This document shows positions 45,748 through 50,157 of a stretch of DNA of 64,000 nt, one piece after another; position 1 is the first letter of the stretch; each line of letters opens with the position of its first letter. The DNA is from Cetobacterium sp. 8H. Its GTDB lineage: Bacteria; Fusobacteriota; Fusobacteriia; Fusobacteriales; Fusobacteriaceae. The translations under genes were made by a program, and so were the position numbers. Under the pieces are notes generated by a model, which did not search any database, had not been told where the DNA came from, and saw only the letters and a list, made by a program, of their open reading frames with translations. The DNA is taken from the NCBI RefSeq assembly GCF_014250675.1, contig NZ_JACHTG010000004.1, forward strand, positions 248,001 through 312,000, given 5' to 3'.

Positions 45748-47619
45748 TTAAAAATTATATTTAAATCCTGCATAGTAATTTCTCTCTGCAGCTGGATAAT
45801 AACTATTTCCTTTTACTCCATATCCAACATATTCATAATATTTTTCATTAAATAGATTATTAATTCCACCGTTTATTACTAATCCATTTCCAAAATTATA
45901 GTTTAAAGATATTCCACTTAAAATATAATCATCAACTTTTTCACCTTTATTTTCCTCATCACTGTTAGCATACATTTTACCATAATATTCCCAAGAGTTA
46001 TTGAATGTCAATTTATCTGTCATTCTATAGTTCAAGTTTAATACCGCTTTAACTTTAGGCACTCCCGGAATCTCTTTCCCCTCTTTAAATTCTGTTTCCA
46101 TATATGTTAATGATTCAGAAATTGTCAGCTTATCAAAATAATGCTCTAAAGATATTTCAGCACCTTTTCTTTTAGTTGTCCCATCATAATTTCTATTTTT
46201 CTTGTCTCCTGAATCAGTTAATCCGTAGAAAATTTCATTCTCTGTTTCTATATAAAAAATTGACCCCGATGCATATGTATTTCCTATAAAATCTTTTATA
46301 CCTAATTCATAAGTTTCTGAAGTTTGTGATTTAAAATCATTGTTTGAATCCCAAAAAGCTAACTCATCTGTATTTGGAGTTCTAAATCCTTTAGTGTAAC
46401 TTAGATATGTTGATCCACTCTCAGAGTATAGATAACTTGCTGTTAATTCTAATGCATCCTCTTTAAATTTTTTATTTCCACCAATTTTACTATCTTTGTA
46501 TTCTACATTTTGTCTTCTATATCCTTGAGTTAATTTCAAATTATCTTTTTTGTAACTATTTATTAAGTATCCACCCAATGAGTTTTTATCTAATTTACTT
46601 CCTTTTCTTATTTCTGTTTCACCGTCGTAATAATCTGTTCCTAAAACTAGATAGCTTTCATCTGTATATTTATACTTCATCTGAGGTTTTACATAACCTA
46701 TCTTTGTTTTATAATCTCTAGTTTTTGAATAATAATTTTCATCTGTATATGTACCTAGCAGTTTGAACTCTAAGTCTGAATTTATATTATAAACATAATC
46801 TCCCGAAAAATTATTCTTTTCAGTTCTTCCATCAACTCTCCATACCGTTGAGTTAGATTGCTCTCTATCTTGATTTACTTCCTCTTTAGTTAAAGCTCCT
46901 GCAGATCTAAAATCTGTTTTTGAATAGTTATATTTTAAACCTAAATATCCTTTTTCTAAGTTGTATTTTGTTCTAAGACCAAAACTTTCTAAATTATCCT
47001 TTTGATAGTCTCTATAGGCATCTTTTTTTCTATCTAAATAATCAATTTCAACTAAAAGTTTTTCACCTATTTTAGTTCCATATCCTATCTCTTTTTTAAA
47101 CATTCCATAAGATCCTACTTCTAATCCTACATTTCCATAATTAGCCTTATTCAGTGGTGCTTTTGTTACTATATTTATAGTTCCACCTATTGCTCCATCA
47201 CCATATAAAACTGAACCTCCAGACGGAATCACCTCTATTCTTTCTATTGTATCCACTGGTATTTGGCTCGTCTTATATCCTGACATATCTATTGAATTTA
47301 ATGGTGCTCCATCCAGTAAAACAATTACATTTGATTTAGATGTCGCTCCTTGCCCTCTTATGTCAAACTGGGCATCTGCTCCACCCATATCTCTTACTGT
47401 AACGCTAGAAACTAACTTCAGTGCTTCAGCTACCGTTTGAGCTCCTCTTTGAACGATCTCTTCTCCTGTTAGAACTGTTATGTTTTTAGGAATATCCGCT
47501 ATTGTTGCCTCTGAATTCTCACTTGTTACAACACTTTCCTCTAATCTTATTACTTTTTCTTCTGCTGATGCAATAGTAGCTGCTAAAAATAGCCCCACCA
47601 TTAAAAATCTTTTGTTCAT
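45748..47619 (-). CDS. btuB: TonB-dependent outer-membrane receptor, BtuB-like
   Basis: Outer-membrane gated channel for corrinoids, 623 aa. Signal peptide MNKRFLMVGLFLAATIASA, then a plug domain (DIPKNITVLTGEEIVQRGAQ, LKLVSSVTVRDMGG, VIVLLDGAPLNS, IERIEVIPSGGSVLYGDGAIGG, quoted in pieces) and a long 22-strand-type barrel ending in aromatic residues (YYAGFKYNF). BtuB is the assignment because the gene sits directly under a cobalamin riboswitch; the barrel itself does not distinguish the ligand. The start is the ATG at 47619, 6 nt after GGGAGG; an upstream ATG lies in the Shine-Dalgarno. Confidence 0.88.
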   Translation of the reverse strand: MNKRFLMVGLFLAATIASAEEKVIRLEESVVTSENSEATIADIPKNITVLTGEEIVQRGAQTVAEALKLVSSVTVRDMGGADAQFDIRGQGATSKSNVIVLLDGAPLNSIDMSGYKTSQIPVDTIERIEVIPSGGSVLYGDGAIGGTINIVTKAPLNKANYGNVGLEVGSYGMFKKEIGYGTKIGEKLLVEIDYLDRKKDAYRDYQKDNLESFGLRTKYNLEKGYLGLKYNYSKTDFRSAGALTKEEVNQDREQSNSTVWRVDGRTEKNNFSGDYVYNINSDLEFKLLGTYTDENYYSKTRDYKTKIGYVKPQMKYKYTDESYLVLGTDYYDGETEIRKGSKLDKNSLGGYLINSYKKDNLKLTQGYRRQNVEYKDSKIGGNKKFKEDALELTASYLYSESGSTYLSYTKGFRTPNTDELAFWDSNNDFKSQTSETYELGIKDFIGNTYASGSIFYIETENEIFYGLTDSGDKKNRNYDGTTKRKGAEISLEHYFDKLTISESLTYMETEFKEGKEIPGVPKVKAVLNLNYRMTDKLTFNNSWEYYGKMYANSDEENKGEKVDDYILSGISLNYNFGNGLVINGGINNLFNEKYYEYVGYGVKGNSYYPAAERNYYAGFKYNF

Positions 47620-47654
47620 TAATCCTCCCATTTCTGTCTCTCGCAGTTTTGTTT

Positions 47655-47802
47655 TTATGGCAGGTATCCTGACTCAACTTCATCCTCTAATATCCCTTCC
47701 CAAGTTTCCTCAGTGGTTTTGATATTATCGTCCATTTTACAGTGGCGTGACCGTTTAAGATTTTCACTTAATTCCCTTTTTATTGAAATTTCCAAACCAT
47801 AA
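47655..47802 (-). ncRNA. Cobalamin riboswitch
   Basis: Minus-strand leader of btuB. It contains the B12 box AGTCAGGATACCTGCC (47659-47674) and the GGTCACGCCACTG segment (ending at 47740), preceded by AAGGGAATTAAGTGAAAATC, all in the order of the conserved adenosylcobalamin element. TTATGG (47797-47802) pairs with CCATAA (47655-47660) to close the P1 helix. The downstream 36 nt up to the btuB Shine-Dalgarno are short and lack a strong terminator, so control of translation start is more likely than transcription termination. Confidence 0.93.
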
Positions 47803-47808
47803 CGACTA

Positions 47809-47814
47809 ATTATA
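47809..47814 (-). promoter_or_regulatory. Likely -10 element of btuB
   Basis: TATAAT on the minus strand, 7 nt upstream of the riboswitch P1 helix; the -35 region (TTTTAA at 17 nt) is weak. Confidence 0.5.
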
Positions 47815-47877
47815 CTACAAAACATACTTTTTTAAAAGTTATATATAGCTAGTTAGTATATTTTATTTTAATTAATA

Positions 47878-48419: not shown

Positions 48420-49853
48420 TTATGCTTCCATGAATTTTTTTACTAATATTTTATCCATCACATATGACGTTGTTAAATTTGCAATAAAGCCTGGTAACAA
48501 TTCATACATATATGCATCTAACCCTAATATTTTCCAGAATAAAAACACCAATGTCCCCACTACTATTCCTGATAAAATACTTTTTGCTTGAATATTTTTT
48601 ACATATAAAACCAATATTATTGCTGGACCAAATATTGTTCCAAAACCACCCCACGCATAGGCTACTAATGAAAGTATTTTTGAATTTTGATTTAAAGCAA
48701 ACAGAAGTGCTAAAAATGCTATTACTATAATACAAGCTCTTCCTACCCACATAATCTCTTTGTCGGTAGCATCCTTTTTTATATATCTATAAAAATCCTC
48801 TGTTAAAGTTGTTGATGAAACCAGAAGCTGAGAATCTATTGTTGACATAATTGCCGATAAAATAGCCGCTAACATAATCCCAACGATCCATGGATTGAAT
48901 AATCTTTTAATCATGAATATAAATATTTTTTCTGCATCTCCCCCTAGAGATGAAATATTGCTAAATATTGGGATTCCTAAAAGCCCTATTGAAATAGCTC
49001 CTATCAGAGAAATAATTACCCAAACCATAGCAATTCTTCTAGATTTTTTAAGCTCTTTCACATCTTTTATACTCATAAATCTAACTAAAATATGTGGTTG
49101 CCCAAAATATCCAAGTCCCCAAGCTAGAGATGATAAAATACTTAAAATTCCTATTTTTTCATTTCCTGATTTAAAGATACTCAATGAAATCTCCTTTAAC
49201 TCTATAGCATTTCTCACATTTTCAACACTTCCAATTTCTAAAAAAGCCATTACTGGAACCGCTATTATCGCTACAAACATTAATGCTCCTTGAAAAAAGT
49301 CTGTCCAACAAGAAGCTAAATAACCACCTAAAAAAGTATATACAACAATTGTTAGAGCGCCAATAATCACTGCAACTTTATATTCTATTCCTAAAATTGT
49401 TTCAAAAAGTTTTCCTGCTGCAACAAGACCTGAAGATGAATAAATTGTGAAGAAAAATAGTGTTCCAAAAGCTAAAAAGTTTCTAATTAGTCCACTTTTA
49501 TCATTTAATTTTTTTTCTAAAAATGTTGGTAATGTAAGTGCATCCTCAACCTCTGTCTCCACTCTCAATTTTGGAGCTATATATTTCCAATTTAAATACG
49601 TCCCTGTAGTTAAACCAATCACTACCCAAATCTGGCTAAACCCTGATAAATAGACAGCTCCAGGTAATCCCATCAATAGCCACCCACTCATGTCACTAGC
49701 TTGAGCTGAAAGTGCTGTAACCCAGCTTCCCACACCCCTTCCACCTATCAAATACTCTTCCGAATTAGTTGTTTTTCCATAAAAATAAACCCCTACACCT
49801 ATTAAAAATACCAAATAAGCTCCAAAAGTTATAAAAGTTTCTAATCCTATCAT
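48420..49853 (-). CDS. putP: Sodium/proline symporter
   Basis: Sodium:solute symporter family (SSS) protein of 477 aa with about 12-13 membrane helices. The N-terminal stretch SAQASDMSGWLLMGLPGAVY and GTYLNWKYIAPKLRVETE is characteristic of PutP, and GGYLASCWTDFFQG and AAILSAIMSTIDSQLLVSS are the SSS signature and Na-site regions. Proline as substrate is supported independently by proline codons in the leader peptide upstream. It starts at ATG 49853 after GGGAGGAG, just beyond a strong terminator in its leader. Confidence 0.9.
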   Translation of the reverse strand: MIGLETFITFGAYLVFLIGVGVYFYGKTTNSEEYLIGGRGVGSWVTALSAQASDMSGWLLMGLPGAVYLSGFSQIWVVIGLTTGTYLNWKYIAPKLRVETEVEDALTLPTFLEKKLNDKSGLIRNFLAFGTLFFFTIYSSSGLVAAGKLFETILGIEYKVAVIIGALTIVVYTFLGGYLASCWTDFFQGALMFVAIIAVPVMAFLEIGSVENVRNAIELKEISLSIFKSGNEKIGILSILSSLAWGLGYFGQPHILVRFMSIKDVKELKKSRRIAMVWVIISLIGAISIGLLGIPIFSNISSLGGDAEKIFIFMIKRLFNPWIVGIMLAAILSAIMSTIDSQLLVSSTTLTEDFYRYIKKDATDKEIMWVGRACIIVIAFLALLFALNQNSKILSLVAYAWGGFGTIFGPAIILVLYVKNIQAKSILSGIVVGTLVFLFWKILGLDAYMYELLPGFIANLTTSYVMDKILVKKFMEA

Positions 49854-49880
49854 TTTCGACTCCTCCCTTTTTTTATTAAA

Positions 49881-49920
49881 TAAAAAAGACCACCTAAGTA
49901 CAATTGTACCTAGGTGGTCT
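49881..49920 (-). terminator. Leader terminator upstream of putP
   Basis: Fifteen-bp stem with one G-U pair (arms 49887-49901 and 49906-49920, starting AGACCACCT), loop AAUU, followed on the minus strand by TTTTTTATTT. It lies 27 bp before the putP start, between its promoter and its coding region, as in attenuators. Confidence 0.88.
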
Positions 49921-49954
49921 CATTTAAAAGAATTCTATATAAAATTTCTTTCAA
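49910..49954 (-). CDS. Possible second leader ORF, 14 codons
   Basis: TTG start at 49954 with AAGGGAG 5 nt upstream; the predicted peptide is MKEILYRILLNETT. Its stop codon falls inside the 5' arm of the terminator, so a translating ribosome would block terminator formation. No homology is recognised and the start is a rare codon, so it may be chance. Confidence 0.3.
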   Translation of the reverse strand: MKEILYRILLNETT

Positions 49955-49965
49955 ATTATCTCCCT

Positions 49966-50009
49966 TAGATACAGATCCAAATTTGTAACACAAAATGGAT
50001 CTGTACCTA
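49966..50009 (-). other. Long leader hairpin upstream of putP
   Basis: Fourteen-bp stem with one G-U pair (UAGGUACAGAUCCA with UGGAUCUGUAUCUA) topped by a further UUUGU/ACAAA helix. The 3' arm has an alternative partner in the terminator 5' arm, so this hairpin and the antiterminator are mutually exclusive. Confidence 0.65.
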
Positions 50010-50039
50010 AACATTTACTAATGTTTAAAACACAAATCC

Positions 50040-50099
50040 CTATCTAGGGGGGATGGGTTGTCTATTTACATTATTTGAAATAACTTGATCTTTTTTCAT
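50040..50099 (-). CDS. Proline-containing leader peptide of putP
   Basis: A 19-codon ORF, MKKDQVISNNVNRQPIPPR, starting at an ATG 6 nt after AGGAG and about 22 nt downstream of a good promoter. Three of its last five residues are proline (codons CCC, CCC, CCT), placed right before the first of the leader's competing RNA stems and upstream of a proline symporter gene. Known amino-acid leader peptides (trp, his, and the proline codons of mgtL) work this way. Expression is not proven. Confidence 0.7.
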   Translation of the reverse strand: MKKDQVISNNVNRQPIPPR

Positions 50100-50128
50100 A
50101 GAACTCTCCTTTATTTTTTATTTCTGTT

Positions 50129-50157
50129 ATAATAACATACTAATGTTTCAAAGTCAA
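50129..50157 (-). promoter_or_regulatory. putP leader promoter
   Basis: The minus strand has TTGACT (50152-50157), a 17-nt spacer and TATTAT (50129-50134) preceded by TGT. It lies just after the flavodoxin stop codon. Confidence 0.75.

Follow-up and report, generated by a model that had tools for sequence, protein, structure and literature searches.

A conserved proline-codon leader ahead of the proline symporter gene putP in Fusobacteriota and its probable role in ribosome-mediated transcription attenuation

The stretch of DNA analysed here, referred to throughout as the window, comprises 64,000 nucleotides from Cetobacterium sp. 8H. Its minus strand carries putP, the gene for a sodium/proline symporter, preceded by a promoter-like site, a short open reading frame (ORF) with proline codons near its end, and an intrinsic terminator. 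In the order of transcription, the features of this region are as follows.

50129..50157, minus strand: sigma-70-like promoter, TTGACT-17-TATTAT, with TG ahead of the -10 box (-35 TTGACT at 50157-50152, 17-nt spacer, -10 TATTAT at 50134-50129); on its own not in excess over chance
50106..50110, minus strand: Shine-Dalgarno sequence AGGAG of the leader ORF, recognized by sequence; such a site precedes every homologous uORF
50040..50099, minus strand: leader ORF MKKDQVISNNVNRQPIPPR*, with ATG at 50099; conserved across the 19 leaders compared
50046..50057, minus strand: predicted sensor codons CCC-ATC-CCC-CCT (Pro15, Ile16, Pro17, Pro18); the rare CCC comes first in 18/19 leaders
50030..50039, minus strand: segment A (GGATTTGTGT), directly 3' of the leader stop codon; A:B pairing seen in the alignment
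49997..50009, minus strand: segment B (TAGGTACAGATCC), partner of A or of C
49989..49996, minus strand: conserved ATTTTGTG (UUUUGUG just after B), kept in alignments A1 and A3
49966..49978, minus strand: segment C (GGATCTGTATCTA), partner of B or of D
49905..49916, minus strand: segment D (CACCTAGGTACA), the 5' arm of the terminator, partner of C (antiterminator) or of E
49886..49921, minus strand: intrinsic terminator hairpin (D:E) of 16 bp followed by a U-tract; a terminator was found in 22/22 leaders examined
48420..49853, minus strand: putP, sodium/proline symporter, with ATG at 49853 (NCBIfam TIGR02121, 610 bits against a cut-off of 515.5)

A sequence-only reading of this region had listed the promoter, a 19-codon ORF with AGGAG at the right spacing, and a terminator ahead of putP, and all of these are present on the minus strand. 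The three prolines that it had counted in the last five residues (CCC, CCC, CCT) are likewise there, as Pro15, Pro17 and Pro18 followed by Arg: the ORF has 19 sense codons, and its final codons, CCC ATC CCC CCT AGA TAG, end at 50040. Promoter-like sites number 3 against a chance expectation of 4.0, and the promoter match alone is weak evidence; in the upstream sequences of the relatives that were read, comparable promoters precede the uORFs. Terminators number 2 against 0.3 expected by chance, and the leader RNA is predicted to fold far more stably than its shuffles (z = -8.7). Since CCC accounts for only 8 of the 537 proline codons in the window (1.5%; 44 long ORFs), the presence of two CCC among the three proline codons of the leader is unusual; proline itself makes up 2.9% of the codons in the window, and the chance of finding at least three prolines within any 5-residue stretch of a 19-mer is about 3e-3. 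Proline auxotrophy was considered as a simple rationale for the leader and is unsupported: proC occurs in the window's genome (G000) and in most relatives, so the host is not plainly an auxotroph, and three genomes without proC (G036, G037, G015) carry the leader nonetheless. Elsewhere in the window, the sole Rfam match at the gathering threshold is a cobalamin riboswitch (104.5 bits; 47642-47816, minus strand) upstream of a TonB-dependent receptor-like gene (45748-47631).

Orthologues of putP were located in the relatives, and their upstream regions were then read. The element stands ahead of the gene in 22 of the 25 same-family genomes with a close putP, the carriers being every one of the 10 genomes from the window's genus that gave a close putP match, together with members of the genera g3, g5, g6, g11 and g13; the putP genes without it belong to g8 (2 genomes; L015, L016) and g9 (1 genome; L027). 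No element was found at the five putP loci examined in a second family, f4 (L028-L030, L032, L033), and no such leader at 14 of the loci L134-L201, read upstream of more distant putP genes (46-60% identical; Spirochaetia, Halanaerobium, Clostridium, Tepidibacter and others).

The comparison of the uORFs covered 19 leaders, Fusobacterium vincentii included. A ribosome-binding site, a start codon and an in-frame ORF are present in all 19, as is the C-terminal peptide motif P-x-[V/P/M]-P, the N-terminal residues being unconserved. The motif is followed by a stop codon, by one residue and a stop, or by five to six further residues; three g5 leaders extend five or six residues beyond it, and their frame enters or crosses segment A. 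The first proline codon is CCC in 18 leaders and the synonymous CCG in F. vincentii, whose putP leader is nearly identical to that of G015, a genome of the same family. The distance from this codon to segment A is 17-18 nt in the loci tabulated, and the number of codons that precede it takes eight different values (8-14 and 16) over the 19 leaders, with the frame kept throughout. Overall, the alignment upstream of putP that the sequence-only reading had proposed as a check bears it out: the ORF, the proline codons and their spacing are kept across six genera, and the remaining peptide and its length drift. A fixed proline position combined with a drifting length is the pattern that selection for decoding at a set position would be expected to produce, and we regard this conservation as the decisive sequence evidence that the leader is real. 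Adjacent prolines are confined to two genera, that of the window and a sister genus (g1, g11), and are absent in 11 of the 19 leaders, the ending outside these two genera being P-x-V-P or P-I-M-P. Stalling at Pro-Pro, which had also been suggested, is therefore unsupported as a conserved feature; perhaps the spaced proline codons of most genera avoid a stalling of this kind, which would be independent of tRNA charging.

Downstream of the leader ORF the RNA can be divided into five segments, A to E, in which A competes with C for B, B with D for C, and C with E for D. Two mutually exclusive folds result, A:B with C:D (antiterminator) versus B:C with D:E (terminator), and across the relatives segment A starts at or close to the end of the leader. 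Over 16 distinct sequences the proportion of paired cells is 100% for A:B, 91.4% for C:D, 98.5% for B:C and 94.9% for D:E, values that refer to hand-chosen segments, alignment A2 having been built from these hand-picked segments with N inserted for the C bulge in a few sequences and some terminator positions also entered as N. Pairs with changes on both sides number 2 in A:B, 3 in C:D, 4 in B:C and 7 in D:E. All four helices exceed every shuffle both in percent paired and in covariation score, with slid controls far lower, although the shuffle counts are not to be read as probabilities because the sequences are related. As an example of the coupling between segments, a single substitution is repeated in A, B and C of L021 (GGATTTGC / TGCAAATCC / GGTTTGCA), and genus g6 displays a coupled change in C and D (TATCG / CGATA). 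The conserved ATTTTGTG 3' of segment B, which is common to several amino-acid classes, is possibly an RNA polymerase pause site.

A covariance model built from the putP leaders only (R1) picked up leaders of other genes throughout the phylum, and a model that begins at A and contains no leader codons (R2) found further elements. Reading of these loci revealed leaders in which one amino acid is repeated in a run, lying ahead of a gene for the same amino acid. Leaders with His codons precede an amino-acid ABC transporter, hisZ and hisS; Tyr leaders precede tyrS and an AGCS symporter; Trp leaders the TrpX ABC transporter (trpX), trpS and NSS symporters; Met leaders metG, the homocysteine synthase gene (metY), homoserine dehydrogenase, aspartate kinase and MetN; an Asn leader precedes asnA, a Thr leader thrS, and an aromatic (Phe/Trp/Tyr) leader DAHP synthase. 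The gene assignments were confirmed with NCBIfam and Pfam where specific models exist; for the AGCS, NSS and amino-acid ABC transporters the substrate is putative, as read from the leader alone. Most of these sister classes have contiguous runs, whereas the putP leaders have only 2-3 proline codons, which are not contiguous, a point against attenuation at putP. In 11 leader-gene pairs chosen by us as representatives, one per gene type (Pro/putP and 10 other gene types), there are 51 cognate residues; 200,000 permutations averaged 13.8 and never exceeded 43. The window's genome alone has four elements: putP with Pro, an ABC transporter with His (L074), an AGCS symporter with Tyr (L085) and an NSS symporter with Trp (L312). 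At the level of sequence, sister elements whose codons match the amino acid of their own gene support attenuation at putP.

Some loci fit less well. An FWFMYYF leader lies before an iron-containing alcohol-dehydrogenase-like gene (L298), an FWFTYYF leader before a PTS EIIC gene (L316), and a leader with two Trp codons before a gene for an oligopeptide-binding protein (L289); leaders of the FWFMYYF or FWFTYYF kind, ahead of one or the other of the first two gene types, occur in the window's genus at L298, L304, L308, L310 and L316. Model matches inside genes or without a matching leader were dropped (L084, L099, L100, L221-L223, L227, L232, L233). In f4, leaders with Cys and Met codons (MCMC, MCMS, MCSHRC, MCHHR) precede a sulfite/nitrite reductase-like gene and ABC transporter genes, at L225 (G089), L292 (G084), L293 (G083) and L290 (G065), and are candidate Cys attenuators. 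In two phyla, at L228 (G009) and L332 (Clostridium ganghwense), NSS-family symporter genes are preceded by Leu-rich leaders (VLLLLADLL, KLLLANL), which are possible Leu attenuators.

The conserved proline uORF, the covarying alternative stems and the sister elements with matching codons all support the ribosome-mediated attenuation that had been suggested for putP. We consider it probable (roughly 0.85) that the putP leader is a ribosome-mediated, trp-type transcription attenuator, such that putP transcription would depend on translation of the leader proline codons; we infer charged tRNA-Pro to be the signal, and the stalling, the direction of the switch and its timing likewise. According to this model, the leader would be translated by a ribosome trailing the RNA polymerase. 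With Pro-tRNA scarce, the ribosome would halt at the first, rare proline codon (usually CCC), its front edge would not reach segment A, which lies 17-18 nt beyond that codon, and A would stay free; this geometry assumes a front edge about 12-13 nt past the A-site codon. Free A would pair with B, leaving C unpaired to capture D, the terminator 5' arm, and putP would be transcribed. With Pro-tRNA plentiful, the ribosome would reach the stop codon beside A, or pass through A, masking it; B:C would then pair, D would be left free for E, and transcription would terminate ahead of putP. In the three g5 leaders with an extended frame, translation into or through A would likewise open A. From the order of pairing, RNA without a ribosome would be expected to be read through if A is not sequestered. 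Folding indicates that A is able to pair with the proline-codon region in the window's genus, and such a pairing would restore termination there without a ribosome. Against the model, the CCN codon at +9 could also owe its conservation to base pairing with the GG in A.

Folding calculations bear on this model to different extents. With A masked, the terminator and B:C are predicted in 16/16 leaders. With A free and the RNA extended up to D, A:B is held in about half of the leaders, and the window's own leader favours B:C. Once E has been made, the terminator is the equilibrium state for all leaders, a free A included; because equilibrium always favours the terminator, antitermination must be kinetic, as is also the case for other attenuators. 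As a test of switching, equilibrium folding was discarded, since it fails to recover antitermination for the window's leader; it lends no support to the direction of the switch there.

The attenuators of the trp, his and thr type in Proteobacteria and Actinobacteria share with putP a leader peptide with cognate codons, alternative stems, and an intrinsic terminator before the structural gene. The features that characterize the trp/his type are found at putP, namely a leader ORF with a ribosome-binding site (and thus predicted translation), cognate codons, and mutually exclusive helices that include a terminator. The putP element differs in its proline specificity, in the symporter gene that it precedes, in its occurrence in Fusobacteriota, and in having a five-segment chain (A:B/B:C/C:D/D:E) where the trp/his/thr type has four segments. 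In ribosome-free RNA it would be expected to adopt the antiterminator fold (A:B with C:D), the opposite of trp, and the window's genus, unlike the trp/his/thr type, may sequester A through the proline-codon region. Attenuators outside Proteobacteria and Actinobacteria are represented by the His leaders before hisZ and hisS in bacilli described by Naville and Gautheret (PMC2965389); these concern only His, and the main text has neither putP nor Fusobacteria. T-boxes (RF00230), too, control amino-acid genes by antitermination according to tRNA charging, as the putP element presumably does, but they bind the tRNA directly without translation, whereas the putP element is proposed to need translation. 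T-boxes are rare across the phylum, and their covariance model gave no match in the window, in G000 or in the window's genus. The Salmonella mgtL and mgtP leaders (cf. PMC3641672) are also ORFs with proline codons that affect downstream transcription; unlike the putP leader they belong to Mg2+ transport and virulence genes, with a different RNA and no proline transporter.

The element is also related to the trpB motif of Rfam (RF04312). The B:C hairpin and terminator of the putP element match this family at 49878-50007 with 39.6 bits (E 2.8e-4), and in the cmscan alignment the architecture of the family is present: a P1 hairpin (B:C), then a terminator, with the antiterminator in the right shoulder of P1 (C:D). 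Of 98 Fusobacteriota genomes, 38 contain matches at E <=0.001, largely at these leaders; the gathering score of 59 is exceeded in none of the 98 (best 52.4), and since the score at putP falls below this threshold we do not class the element as a member of the trpB motif. Besides P1, terminator and antiterminator, the two share an association with amino-acid transporters and an occurrence in Fusobacteria and Firmicutes. In the part of PMC11109978 drawn on here, the trpB motif (SRC-39-1) is presented as a strong riboswitch candidate whose ligand is not named, a classic attenuator not being excluded by the authors, and the description contains neither a leader ORF nor a segment A, both of which are present at putP. 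Leaders likewise accompany matches to RF04312 or R2 in Clostridia: those with His codons stand ahead of hisZ and hisS, one with Tyr codons ahead of an ABC permease, and Phe-rich ones ahead of transporters. From these comparisons, the best reading is that the trpB motif (or a close relative) represents the 3' portion of attenuators mediated by the ribosome. We further lean, with some reserve, towards one homologous A-E switch, with the trpB motif as its 3' part and the putP leader as its proline form. Such a modular attenuator would have been disseminated among Fusobacteriota and some Clostridia, its codon cassette (Pro, His, Tyr, Trp, Met, Asn, Thr, aromatic, possibly Cys and Leu) being swapped to suit the gene, and would fill a role taken by T-boxes elsewhere among bacteria.

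These observations can also be read in other ways. The leader could encode an arrest peptide of the TnaC or SpeFL type, in which a chain ending P-x-V-P-stop would stall the ribosome on free proline and the stall would set the RNA fold. Outside g1 and g11 the endings P-x-V-P or P-I-M-P, several with proline immediately before the stop, would suit such a peptide, and in TnaC termination after proline is slow. On the other hand, TnaC-type arrest requires conserved tunnel residues, and beyond the C-terminal sensor none are found here, P-x-[V/P/M]-P alone being conserved: the N-terminal part varies in sequence and in length (8-16 codons before the first proline), the peptide of the window's genus ends PPR, and the three g5 leaders continue beyond the motif by five or six residues. 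The same RNA, moreover, serves runs of His, Tyr, Trp, Met, Asn or Thr, and we consider an arrest peptide improbable. Another reading is stalling at Pro-Pro independent of charging, which would depend on EF-P and report EF-P or general translation; the window's leader does have PP (codons 17-18) after PI, yet 11 of the 19 leaders have no adjacent prolines and the sister elements use other amino acids, which makes this reading very improbable, and rather more so than the first.

A metabolite-binding riboswitch, as suggested for the related trpB motif, would account for the conserved hairpin and terminator, and finds some encouragement in the sub-threshold match to a strong riboswitch candidate (PMC11109978). 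Conservation, however, lies mostly in the covarying helices, and not in an aptamer core left unpaired; directly upstream of A stands a uORF whose codons match the gene, and one fold occurs before genes for several amino acids, each with a different codon run. We judge a riboswitch to be quite improbable, its chances falling between those of the arrest peptide and of Pro-Pro stalling. That a short ORF stands by chance before a constitutive promoter and a leaky terminator agrees with promoter matches being no commoner than in shuffled sequence, but is contradicted by the conservation, the covariation and the match between codons and genes, and we give it hardly any credence.

Leader-peptide attenuation is itself classical. 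A search of openly licensed papers turned up no description of a putP leader of this kind or of amino-acid attenuators in Fusobacteriota. If the attenuator reading is correct, putP would be under a proline-specific leader-peptide attenuator acting on a proline symporter, a type for which that search gave no description, and Fusobacteriota, where T-boxes are scarce, would possess a broad set of amino-acid attenuators. The orphan trpB motif, with >900 published representatives, would acquire a testable role in ribosome-mediated attenuation with many amino-acid specificities, rather than as a ligand-binding aptamer. In fusobacteria and some clostridia, a ribosome on a tiny peptide appears to report the scarcity of one particular amino acid.

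Two further observations concern putP loci outside the window's genus. Between the terminator of the attenuator and putP, the g5 and g13 loci (L017-L024) have another short ORF containing a proline codon (for example MLKVPRIKGIVNIDTLSK, MIKVPRSNKIINFGLSK, MKLIKVPGSLQISR), which in L017 and L018 lies inside a CCC/GGG hairpin and is possibly a second layer of control. One g5 genome, G033, has putP with its leader twice on a single contig (C5:30427-30517, plus strand, and 174382-174472, minus strand).
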